Positions 25,032 through 29,333 of a stretch of 64,000 nt of DNA are shown one piece after another. A model generated the notes under the pieces. That model did no database searches, was not told the origin of the DNA, and was given only the letters and a program-made list of their open reading frames with translations. How positions within the stretch are numbered: position 1 is the stretch's first letter; every line of letters starts with the position of its first letter. Position numbers and translations under genes: made by a program. The stretch comes from Candidatus Methanodesulfokora washburnensis (GTDB taxonomy: Archaea > Korarchaeota > Korarchaeia > Korarchaeales > Korarchaeaceae). Location: contig NZ_RCOS01000113.1 of assembly GCF_003947435.1 (NCBI RefSeq), positions 1-64,000 on the forward strand, given 5' to 3'.

Positions 25032-26309
25032 TTGGGGGTTGTAATTAGACCTGTATTTGCTCTGGATTTCGGCACCAGTTTGGTTAAATTCGGCCCCATA
25101 TGGAGGGGAAAGTACCCAGATTTCATAGAAAATAGAGGATATTTTCCCAAGATTTCCAAAATATCAGCGGAGATAAGAGGTCTTGCTGCTGAGGAAGTTA
25201 TAGTAGGACCTGCTGTATCGGAGTACTTGGAATCAAAAGCCGATCTATCTAGACTCTATTATCCCATGAGAAATGGTGTAATAGCAAGAGATGATGAGCG
25301 AGGTTGGAAGATTGTCAAAAAGATAATTAAGTACACACTCGAAAAGTACTATCCTGGAAAATATGATCCAAGCGGAAGGCCTTTTGATGGTTTTTACGTT
25401 GTAGTTGCTCTAGCAGCTCAATCACCAACTTACATGTACGAGAGGATGTTTGAGATCCATAAAGAGGTAAATGAGGAACATGGAAGAGGTCTTATAAAAG
25501 CTGTTACAATAATACCCCAGCCTCTTTCTGTTGCTATAGCTGAAAAAGCCACTACATGCACTGTGATAGAGTCAGGCCATGGAAACACACAAGTCACTCC
25601 CATAAGCAGGGATGTGATAAGAGCTGCTCTAATTCCACTAAACAGAGGAGGTTACGATTCTGACAGAATTACATCTCAGATATTAAAGGATATTGGCTAC
25701 TCGGATCTGGCAAGAGAGGAGAAATTCGTCAGAATATTCAAGGAGATGGCTGGTCTTGTTCCATTAAATTTAGATAAAGCAATAGAATGGACAAAGGCAC
25801 ATAAAGGAGCTGTGAAGAACAGGTTTTCAATACCGGGAACTACTGTTAGCGTAGATATGGGAGACAAGGCATGGATGAGGTTTCTAATAGGTGAGTTCTT
25901 CTTTAATCCAGGACATGAGCTTTACCAGAGTTATTACACTAGAGGATTCGCTCCACCAGCCGATACTGTGGTGGGAGGGGAGGTTATACCCGGAAATGTG
26001 AGCATTGCGGAGGCAATCAGGCTCTCAATATCTAAGACTCCTGTAGAGATACAATCCAGCTTAGTGAGAAGGATAATACTCTCAGGGGGTGCCTTCAACT
26101 GGAAGGTTCCTGACGGAATGGAGGGTGTTGCTGTCAGCTCTCCTGAGAAAATAAGAATACAGCTGAGGGAGCTGGGGATTGATTCTCAGCCATCCATGAT
26201 AGCAGATCCGCAGTTCAGTGTATGGAGGGGATCTATAATATACGGGAATTATGTTCCAGAGGACCTCACTTGGGATTGGAGTTCTCTTGAGGGGTGGATG
26301 TACTTATAG
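25032..26309 (+). CDS. crenactin (archaeal actin homologue)
   Basis: Actin-fold ATPase of 425 residues. The phosphate-1 loop is seen in FALDFGTSLVKFGP (about 8-21), the connect/phosphate-2 region in CTVIESGHGNTQVTPI, and the adenosine region in RRIILSGGAFNW. Length and motifs match crenactin, the filament-forming actin of Thermoproteales, Korarchaeota and Aigarchaeota. Arcadin genes, often beside crenactin in Thermoproteales, were not recognised here; the neighbours are ogt (2 bases upstream) and a DUF72 gene that overlaps its last 44 bases on the other strand. Confidence 0.88.
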   Translation: MGVVIRPVFALDFGTSLVKFGPIWRGKYPDFIENRGYFPKISKISAEIRGLAAEEVIVGPAVSEYLESKADLSRLYYPMRNGVIARDDERGWKIVKKIIKYTLEKYYPGKYDPSGRPFDGFYVVVALAAQSPTYMYERMFEIHKEVNEEHGRGLIKAVTIIPQPLSVAIAEKATTCTVIESGHGNTQVTPISRDVIRAALIPLNRGGYDSDRITSQILKDIGYSDLAREEKFVRIFKEMAGLVPLNLDKAIEWTKAHKGAVKNRFSIPGTTVSVDMGDKAWMRFLIGEFFFNPGHELYQSYYTRGFAPPADTVVGGEVIPGNVSIAEAIRLSISKTPVEIQSSLVRRIILSGGAFNWKVPDGMEGVAVSSPEKIRIQLRELGIDSQPSMIADPQFSVWRGSIIYGNYVPEDLTWDWSSLEGWMYL

Positions 26310-27030
26310 ATTTCAGTACACTCAAGAACCTCTGGGAGTCCTCTCCCATATAGGAGTTGTTAAACATCACATATGAGACCTCAGAACTCAAGCCAGATAT
26401 GAATTCAGCGAGATGAGAGAGCTCTTCATCCCCATACTTGTACTTATACACTATTTTCCTTCCCTTTCTTCCTCCATGAAGCCTGAAGTAAGAGGTTCTT
26501 CCAACCAGCGCAGGTCTATCGTATAGAGGGTCTACTACATGTATTATGTCAAGTTCCCTTAGAATACTGTCTAACTTGTCCTTCCAGCTTTCATGTCTTA
26601 CCTCCCAGCCAATTTTGTCTACATCACCCCTTATGGACTTGAAAAATCTGTATGCATTATCAATATTCTCTTCTGTAGCTTCAAAAGAAGGGGGACTCTG
26701 AAATATGATCAGCTCTGGGTTTAAGGGCTTAATAGACTCTAGAAATTCTTTCCACAACTTGAGATTATCCTCACTGCATCTGAGCAACCCTACATTTCTT
26801 CCATGTGGAAGGCCTTTCTTCCTCCAGAAAGTGCTGTTTGGATCATGAGTGAGAGCCATCCATGCTTTTGGAACAAATTCAAACCATTCAGGGGACTCCT
26901 TTCTCCAAGAAGAAGCGAGTTTCTGAGATATAATTTTATAAAATGTATTCTGCACTTCAACTACATTGAATAAACTGTAATATTTCTTTTTAGAGAAGCA
27001 GAAGCCACAACATCCCACTTTGATGTGCAT
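26266..27030 (-). CDS. DUF72 family protein
   Basis: A 254-residue TIM-barrel-like DUF72 protein (YecE type) of unknown biochemical function. Hallmarks are VGCCGFCFSKKKYY at the N-terminus, EVQNTFYKI, FVPKAWMALTHDP, FQSPPSF, and YFRLHGG near the C-terminus. Its promoter (complement of the TATA-like box near 27047-27058) is placed for a leaderless start and interleaves with that of the divergent R15P isomerase. The 3' end overlaps crenactin by 44 bp. Confidence 0.85.
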   Translation of the reverse strand: MHIKVGCCGFCFSKKKYYSLFNVVEVQNTFYKIISQKLASSWRKESPEWFEFVPKAWMALTHDPNSTFWRKKGLPHGRNVGLLRCSEDNLKLWKEFLESIKPLNPELIIFQSPPSFEATEENIDNAYRFFKSIRGDVDKIGWEVRHESWKDKLDSILRELDIIHVVDPLYDRPALVGRTSYFRLHGGRKGRKIVYKYKYGDEELSHLAEFISGLSSEVSYVMFNNSYMGEDSQRFLSVLKSISTSTPQENSNPK

Positions 27031-27063: not shown

Positions 27064-28068
27064 ATGACAGTGCCTGAAGAAGTCCTTAAGCTCGCAGAAG
27101 ATATAAAAAATATGAGAATAAGGGGTGCCGGCGAGATAGCTAGAGCGGCTGTAAGGGGATTAAGTATAGCTGCAGCAAAATCGGAGGCCACCAATAGGGA
27201 GGAGTTTCTGAGAGATCTTGATGATGCTGCTAAAGTGCTTCTACTGACAAGACCTACTGCGGTATCCCTGCCCAACGCATTAAGATATGTCATGGTTAGG
27301 GCGTATAAAGCATATGAGGAGGGAAGGACTAAGGATGAAATAAAGGAAAGTGTATTTAAGGCATCTGACGAGTTCTACAAGAACTCTCTTAAGGCCATTG
27401 ATCTAATAGGAATGTATGGATCGAGAAGAATAGAAGATGGAGATATTATAATGACTCATTGCCATAGCACTGCTGCTGTAAGTATTCTAGTGAATGCATG
27501 GAGAAGTGGGAAGAGGTTTGAGGTTATATCTACTGAAACTAGGCCCAGGTATCAAGGAAGAATAACAGCATCGATTCTTGCCAAGGAAGGGATACCTGTA
27601 TCTCTCATAGTGGATTCGGCTGCTAGATTTTTCATGGAGCATGTAGATAAAGTTGTTGTAGGAGCTGATGCTGTGGCTGCAAATGGAGCTGTAGTGAACA
27701 AAATAGGAACGTCCATGATTGCTTTAGCTGCCCATGAGGCCAGAGTCAATTTTATTGTAGCTGCTGAGACCTATAAATTCTCTCCAGAGACTGTTTTGGG
27801 ATCTCTCATAAGGATAGAGGAGAGGCCAGCTGACGAAATAGTGGAAACACAGTACCTAAAAGACAACCCGGGAGTGAAAGTCAGAAATCCTGCTTTTGAT
27901 GTCACTCCTGCCTCTTATGTCGATCTAATAGTAACAGAAAAGGGCGTAATTCCTCCAGAAGCAGCTATATTGATACTTAAAGAAGAGTTTGGATGGTTCT
28001 CCAGCGTAAACCTGCCTAAATTCCTGAAAGAAGGATTAGAAACTCCTGTGGAAATGAGCGAATACTGA
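27064..28068 (+). CDS. ribose-1,5-bisphosphate isomerase
   Basis: eIF2B-alpha-like isomerase of 334 residues. In archaea it converts ribose 1,5-bisphosphate to ribulose 1,5-bisphosphate in the AMP pathway that feeds form III RuBisCO. The N-terminal IKNMRIRGAGEIARAA, the active-site region MTHCHSTAA with its cysteine, and GADAVAANGAVVNKIGT with its aspartate are intact. It faces a RuBisCO-like gene across 29 bases. Translation initiation factor 2B-like or methylthioribose-phosphate isomerase roles are less likely given the RxGAG and DAVAANG pattern. Confidence 0.9.
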   Translation: MTVPEEVLKLAEDIKNMRIRGAGEIARAAVRGLSIAAAKSEATNREEFLRDLDDAAKVLLLTRPTAVSLPNALRYVMVRAYKAYEEGRTKDEIKESVFKASDEFYKNSLKAIDLIGMYGSRRIEDGDIIMTHCHSTAAVSILVNAWRSGKRFEVISTETRPRYQGRITASILAKEGIPVSLIVDSAARFFMEHVDKVVVGADAVAANGAVVNKIGTSMIALAAHEARVNFIVAAETYKFSPETVLGSLIRIEERPADEIVETQYLKDNPGVKVRNPAFDVTPASYVDLIVTEKGVIPPEAAILILKEEFGWFSSVNLPKFLKEGLETPVEMSEY

Positions 28069-28097: not shown

Positions 28098-29207
28098 TCA
28101 CTGAGTTGCAAGGATTCCCCACTTCTTTACCGCTACTTTCACCTCTTCATGGCTGTTAAGTATTTCTGGAAGTCTTTCCCCTCTGAGAAAGGCATCTATG
28201 CATTCCCTCATGGATTTAACTCCTGCTTCTTCTCCCATTGGATGTTCATATACTGCTTCATCAGCTATTATTGCTTGTTCCTCCCCAAAAATAGCTAAGT
28301 TTGCCTCCACCTCCCCTGGATGAATGTTTCTTGCTACTGGCAGAGATTTCTTAACTTCAATTCCTGATGTGAGAGCCCTATCTATGCTGAGAACTTCCTC
28401 TCTGTTTGTTCCGTAATAGCCAGGTCTCTCCACGACATCGGCACCATAAAGTCTAGCAAGCTTAGCCAAGATGGATGGAGAAAAAGAGCTCTGATATGAT
28501 GGAAGGTTTACGTATAGAAAAATTCTCTTTCCAAATTCCTCTCTGATCGTAACAATGCCGTCCATGCACCCCACATTTAAATCATAAAATAATGTCCTTG
28601 CACCACTATCAAGGGATTTCTGAACTATGTCTACAAGTTTCTCCAGTTTGGATGTCACATTTACCCAGTAAACTGCCCTTCTTCCAGTTTCCTCTTTGAT
28701 CTTATCTATTTTTTCCTCTATAAGAGATATCCTTAAGCCTATTTGAGATGCCTCTTGGTTGATCAAACCTGGAATATCTCTTACAAAGTCTAAGCCTGCT
28801 GATATGAGTTTATATGAGACATCTGCCAAATCTGCTGGATGTATTCCCTGGATAGGCCTCAAAACTGCACCCAGCATAACTCCTCTCGCACCAAGAGACC
28901 TGTTTATCCCTTCAGCCCCATTGGAAGGTCCTGGCATGTGAGAGAAATCGGCCTCAACATCCTCTAACCTGATATCTCCATGAGGCAAACTGTCTATCAC
29001 TAGAGCTAGGGATTGAAGCAGACCAGATTCTGTATCTAGAATTGTCTCTGGAATTTGGACATAAAATGCATCTCCCTCACTGCTTAGCGAGAGAAGGGCC
29101 CTCTCCTCATCAGTCTCAACCCATTTTCTTAATCTCTCAAACCATTTTATAAATGAAGTATGATCTTCCCTCACAACAAATTTTAGCCTTAGTGCTCTAG
29201 TACTCAT
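28098..29207 (-). CDS. RuBisCO-like protein lacking the catalytic residues
   Basis: A 369-residue homologue of the RuBisCO large subunit, about 60-75 shorter than form III enzymes. Recognisable blocks are GDIRLEDV, GAVLRPIQGIHPADLADVSY, AGLDFVRDIPG, ILAKLARLYGAD, IHPGEVEANLAIFG, EHPMGEEAGVKSMRECIDAF and HEEVKVAVKKWG at the end. The catalytic positions are replaced: KPKxG is RPIQG (R117), the carbamylated-lysine block KDDE is RDIP (143-146), the HxHRAMH region is YVNLPSYQ with about ten residues deleted, loop-6 lysine is absent, and SSGG is VARN. Carboxylase activity is therefore not expected. It converges with the R15P isomerase gene. Confidence 0.85.
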   Translation of the reverse strand: MSTRALRLKFVVREDHTSFIKWFERLRKWVETDEERALLSLSSEGDAFYVQIPETILDTESGLLQSLALVIDSLPHGDIRLEDVEADFSHMPGPSNGAEGINRSLGARGVMLGAVLRPIQGIHPADLADVSYKLISAGLDFVRDIPGLINQEASQIGLRISLIEEKIDKIKEETGRRAVYWVNVTSKLEKLVDIVQKSLDSGARTLFYDLNVGCMDGIVTIREEFGKRIFLYVNLPSYQSSFSPSILAKLARLYGADVVERPGYYGTNREEVLSIDRALTSGIEVKKSLPVARNIHPGEVEANLAIFGEEQAIIADEAVYEHPMGEEAGVKSMRECIDAFLRGERLPEILNSHEEVKVAVKKWGILATQ

Positions 29208-29333
29208 AAGATCCTCATCTCTCAGATCTACACCTAGAATTTAAATATTTATTATTGACTCGAATCGAGAAAGGAAACTGAAGAACCTTTTTGCTACGCA
29301 AGTTTTTATTGAAAGATTTGTCATGACTGCCAG

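Follow-up and report, generated by a model that had tools for sequence, protein, structure and literature searches.

A gene in a 64,000-nucleotide stretch of the genome of the hot-spring archaeon Candidatus Methanodesulfokora washburnensis (the window) was found to encode a RuBisCO-like protein (RLP) that has kept the two-domain RuBisCO fold, as predicted by modelling. Alignment showed that neither the Mg-carbamate centre nor either of the phosphate sites is preserved, and that the loop-6 lysine and the catalytic histidines have been lost as well. The protein belongs to a lineage of metal-less RLPs that, among the archaeal genomes and bacterial plasmids searched, has so far been found in Korarchaeaceae only. 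On balance we consider it somewhat probable that it is a non-catalytic pseudo-RuBisCO, a binding or scaffold protein, and we favour this reading over a sensor or a new enzyme.

Table 1. Features of the RLP gene and its neighbourhood in the window. Some block gene names are what we take them to be from our own reading of the sequences.
Feature	Positions	Strand	Basis or remark
Metal-less RLP (pseudo-RuBisCO), 369 aa	28098..29207	(-)	ATG start, ORF intact
RPIQG, residues 117-121, replaces KPKxG (Lys175, Lys177 lost)	28845..28859	(-)	Alignment with own form III RuBisCO
RDIP, residues 143-146, replaces KDDE (carbamate Lys201 and Mg ligands Asp203, Glu204 lost)	28770..28781	(-)	Alignment
Arg261, end of strand 6	28425..28427	(-)	Alignment; 15/16 of clade; Ile or Val in aligned catalytic RuBisCOs
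VARN, residues 291-294, replaces SSGG (Ser379, Gly381 region)	28326..28337	(-)	Alignment
Asp316 at the Gly403 (P1 phosphate) position	28260..28262	(-)	Alignment; 15/16 of clade
Ribose-1,5-bisphosphate isomerase, intact	27064..28068	(+)	Convergent neighbour, 29 bases from the RLP gene
DUF72 (PF01904) protein	26266..27030	(-)	Same strand as the RLP gene
Actin-family protein	25032..26309	(+)	PF00022, 46 bits; position conserved in the family genomes examined
Block part 1: GTPase, UbiD, AsnRS-like, ERCC4-type nuclease, OB-fold protein, RtcA-like, MGMT-like protein			
Block part 2: actin, DUF72, isomerase, RLP, CLP1, glycerate kinase, TrmB			

RuBisCO homology and fold

The first-pass annotation of the window had proposed RuBisCO homology for the 369-residue product, and this was borne out by profile search and structure prediction. 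The protein matched Pfam PF00016 (RuBisCO_large) over residues 110-363 with 84.5 bits, well above the cut-off of 30.1, and a phmmer search of the PDB gave MtnW (2oej) as the best match at E 2e-27, with archaeal RuBisCOs at about 1e-24. The N-terminal domain was poorly recognised from sequence alone. An AlphaFold model based on an alignment of 16 orthologues reached a pLDDT of 88.7, and comparison of this model with the PDB by Foldseek gave an E value of 1e-26 and TM-scores of 0.80-0.87 (about 0.85); among the matches listed, 50 of 50 PDB structures were RuBisCOs or RLPs. Judged by the model, the two-domain fold is not in doubt, N-terminal domain included, and the RuBisCO fold was retained in a distant clade member too.

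With a PF00016 match and the two-domain fold, the protein falls within the RuBisCO superfamily. Its predicted fold would also suit a form IV RLP in the broad sense, as a putative RuBisCO homologue without carboxylase activity. It scored far under the cut-off of every named NCBIfam RuBisCO or RLP model, with 110.7 against 497.45 bits for form III RuBisCO (TIGR03326), 99.6 against 513.6 and 111.8 against 409 bits for the two MtnW models (TIGR03332 and NF007095), and 64.3 against 700 bits for OiaX (NF042437). Annotation by PF00016 only would label the metal-less RLPs as RuBisCO. Immediately upstream of the RLP start lies an A/T-rich stretch, 29208-29260 (TTTAAATATT), possibly the TATA box of the RLP gene itself.

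Distribution in Korarchaeaceae

A contig scan with the single RLP query gave one close relative, and orthologues were then gathered by genome searches. The close relative, L024 from Candidatus Methanodesulfokora, has an RLP that is 84% identical. The RLP was present in 16 of the 24 Korarchaeaceae genomes, seven of them in genera g1 (the window's genus), g2, g3 and g5 and nine in g4, for which 'Korarchaeum-like' is a working label; the 15 orthologues come from five genera, with identity down to about 26%. No further clade member was found among 394 archaeal genomes (about 370 other than Korarchaeaceae), nor, at a strict threshold, in partly overlapping sets of 23, 115 and 228 genomes; the bacterial part of the search covered plasmids. 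The best outside matches retain KPK or KPC plus KDDE, and the three best non-Korarchaeal candidates (f6, f85 and f15) were ruled out as extra members, KDDE being present in all. A limited literature search returned no papers on RLPs in Korarchaeota, and on that basis metal-less RLPs appear undescribed. On a plasmid of Terrarubrum flagellatum (L127, 488-1534) we observed a bacterial RLP, short at 348 aa, in which KDDE is replaced by KDDH; it adjoins a cupin gene.

Loss of the active site

Residues were checked against the genome's own form III RuBisCO at 20 canonical active-site positions, and the window RLP kept none of them (0/20). Positions K175, K177, K201, D203, E204, H327, K334, G403 and G404 correspond to R, I, R, I, P, E, a gap, D and E, and all the residues by which forms I-III are recognised (Lys175, Lys177, His294, Arg295, His327, Lys334, Ser379, Gly403, Gly404) are missing. 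The HxHR loop is shortened and the loop-6 Lys is gone; these two readings of the first-pass annotation, like those of RPIQG, RDIP and VARN, all proved correct in the alignment.

The triad of carbamate Lys201 and Mg ligands Asp203/Glu204 was found in 0 of 16 clade proteins, which places them all outside forms I-III. Among the 15 orthologues, the residue at position 201 varies between R, M, A, L, V and F, and that at 203 between I and P; both g2 proteins have Glu at 204, without its metal-site partners. Isolated matches are scattered among the orthologues, for example a single Lys at position 175, a single Arg at 295 and Ser at 379 in some, and none of the clade proteins retains a working active-site set. 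Catalytic Lys and Asp/Glu residues might have lain elsewhere; in the alignment of the 16 proteins no substitute set conserved across the clade was found. The clade has near-invariant residues of its own, namely Y180, R261, D276, N303, D316, D338, R342 and E344.

Conservation at the barrel mouth

If the clade shared a reaction, conservation would be expected to peak at the C-terminal strand ends. It did so in a control set of ten catalytic RuBisCOs and close relatives, where the mouth of the barrel (C-terminal ends) was more conserved than the base (N-terminal ends), with 0.63 against 0.46 (p 0.011), whereas the metal-less clade showed the reverse, with 0.31 at the mouth and 0.41 at the base. 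This test is modest, with about 40 positions in each class and a pool of lineages that possibly differ in function; g4 alone also showed no excess of conservation at the mouth. The parts held constant in the clade are the base and the C-terminal motif DxxxRGE (residues 338-344). A mouth less conserved than the base, seen against this control, speaks for a non-catalytic role, and a rebuilt active site, which we had favoured at first, was given up as the preferred reading.

A new enzyme was one of the possibilities raised in the first-pass annotation. Three mouth residues, Asp144, Arg261 and Asp316, show hardly any variation, so that a small new site could exist there, and a metal-independent enzyme might have rebuilt its mouth around them to act on an anionic substrate. 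Such an enzyme would fit the strong purifying selection described below, the near-invariant polar residues found where strands 2, 6 and 8 end on the C-terminal side, and the absence of Arg261 and Asp316 from catalytic RuBisCOs. However, the mouth as a whole is not preferentially conserved, the g3 member lacks both Arg261 and Asp316, and no metabolic operon surrounds the RLP gene. We regard a new enzyme as rather unlikely, and prefer the non-catalytic reading.

The neighbouring isomerase and the AMP pathway

The isomerase next to the RLP gene scored 425.5 bits with TIGR00511 (cut-off 314.1), which makes it a member of this family, and has Cys133 and Asp202, which we take to be its active-site residues from the Thermococcus enzyme; its description in the first-pass annotation as an intact neighbour was therefore right. 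The same annotation saw no other RuBisCO. That is true of the window, but a search of the genome located an intact form III RuBisCO with its full set of catalytic residues on contig C168, and AMP phosphorylase on contig C173. As predicted from these genes, the AMP pathway needs no contribution from the RLP to be complete, and a partner for the isomerase is already present. The contamination estimate of the assembly is 5.5%; all three genes recur in the sister genome G020, with RuBisCO 93% and isomerase 94% identical. Two AMP phosphorylase genes, both above the family cut-off, were observed in each of G001, G002, G003, G022 and G023.

The first-pass annotation had proposed a partner of the isomerase or a binding or regulatory protein for ribulose bisphosphate. 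In this reading the RLP would regulate the isomerase, pair with it, or sense ribulose bisphosphate in the AMP pathway. The two genes are adjacent in 7 of the 7 genomes having both, and these genomes also contain RuBisCO and AMP phosphorylase. However, the genes are convergent in all seven, and synteny extends over the whole block, so that the adjacency amounts to shared gene order; its functional reading was dropped after the synteny comparison. Moreover, searches of the nine g4 genomes with an RLP found neither a catalytic RuBisCO nor AMP phosphorylase, nor an isomerase above the cut-off, which indicates that the function of the RLP is independent of the AMP pathway, at least in g4. Conversely, G021 has isomerase and RuBisCO but no RLP. 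Both phosphate sites are lost, with a conserved Asp at the Gly403 position. We consider it improbable that the RLP is linked with the isomerase or with ribulose bisphosphate.

The gene block and DUF72

About 15 genes stand in shared order across Korarchaeaceae (Table 1). The isomerase lies between DUF72 and the RLP in g1, g2 and g3; DUF72 is missing from the block in g5, where it is located elsewhere, and in g4 both block and genome are without a match to the isomerase above the cut-off. The CLP1 side of the block is relocated in g1. In G004, G005, G008, G016, G018 and G021 the block is the same except that it lacks the RLP, and no remnant of its gene was found in G021 or at the five RLP-less g4 loci. 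At the RLP site of G021 (L101, 8435-8995) we observed about 560 bases that lack the RLP gene and include a hairpin-like CTACCGTTAACGGTAG, maybe an insertion-sequence remnant; it gave no Rfam match.

In g4, DUF72 directly follows the RLP on the same strand, and its GTG start overlaps the RLP stop (GTGA), with G014 and G015 less clear; from this arrangement the two proteins are probably co-produced in the Korarchaeum-like genomes. DUF72 proteins have a TIM-barrel fold, are relatives of UV-damage endonuclease and show some enrichment near PolB2 genes (PMC11791011). On present evidence the gene order points weakly to DUF72 as the best candidate partner of the RLP. Against a partnership, DUF72 is nearly universal in the family, including the genomes that lost the RLP, sits elsewhere in g5, and in g1-g3 has the isomerase between itself and the RLP. 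The ERCC4 nuclease, OB-fold, MGMT-like, RtcA-like and CLP1 proteins of the block also handle nucleic acids, and from gene order a role of the RLP beside nucleic-acid repair is conceivable.

Phylogeny, origin and selection

In a tree with eleven RLP representatives the metal-less RLPs were monophyletic (support 100/99) and stood apart from form I, form III, MtnW, OiaX and other RLPs. The depth and the exact sister of the clade are unsure because the branches are long. A topology that forced the RLPs to group with the form III RuBisCOs of korarchaeotes was rejected (p-AU 0.003), and with it an origin of the RLP by duplication of the local enzyme. With the Mg-carbamate site missing throughout 16 proteins, the suggestion of a new RLP class stripped of catalytic residues is supported.

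The clade shares with the archaeal form III RuBisCO of the AMP pathway the superfamily, the two-domain fold and the HPG, HPxG and C-terminal WG motifs. Unlike that enzyme, the RLP has lost the catalytic residues, is about 60 residues shorter, has 22-25% identity to it and falls in a separate clade. With form IV MtnW (2,3-diketo-5-methylthiopentyl-1-phosphate enolase), the best PDB sequence match, and OiaX it has in common the fold and presumably the lack of carboxylase activity, but the MtnW and OiaX sequences examined retain the KDDE block and the metal-less clade, which is without it, branches apart. The other RLPs whose sequences were examined keep the Mg-carbamate block wholly or largely, and to our knowledge all characterised RLPs use it.

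A second RLP of G014, L113 (contig C9, 4467-5705, minus strand), was placed as a possible sister of the clade with support of 92/72, which is not firm. It shares with the clade the EAN motif after strand 7, but it has 412 aa, lies at another locus and keeps KDDE and HRTMH, though not the loop-6 lysine. L113 may thus be both sister and intermediate of the metal-less clade.

The RLP is under purifying selection, with dN/dS of 0.05 in the closest pair and values of 0.05-0.19 in the others, synonymous sites being close to saturation in some pairs; the frames are intact in 16 genomes. It evolves faster than RuBisCO and isomerase, with 84% identity against 93-94% for these two between the same pair of genomes. 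On a species tree from neighbour genes, the presence and absence of the RLP requires three changes, and these, together with the constant locus, fit ancestral presence in Korarchaeaceae and three losses; the RLP was thus apparently ancestral to the family and lost three times. That it is instead a copy of the local form III RuBisCO decaying towards loss is very improbable: its faster change and its absence from at least three lineages would agree with decay, but the selection data and intact frames contradict it, the AU test rejects a local origin, and new residues are fixed across five genera.

Role and significance

With the RuBisCO active site lost, the RLP must do something else. We propose that an old lineage of the RuBisCO superfamily retained the fold and lost its Mg-carbamate centre and phosphate sites. 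The protein would then do no RuBisCO or enolase chemistry and would act through binding or as a scaffold, and the isomerase beside it would be the functional companion of the form III RuBisCO encoded on contig C168. We give about an even chance to the fuller account in which the lineage was already non-catalytic before Korarchaeaceae diversified, had abandoned metal and phosphate binding and was kept for a binding or scaffold role outside carbon or sulfur-sugar metabolism.

The 16 proteins from five genera, together with the absences at an intact locus and the possible intermediate L113, form a clean set for studying how an enzyme fold loses its chemistry. A conserved clade without the Mg-carbamate block would show that the RuBisCO fold can persist for a wholly different purpose.
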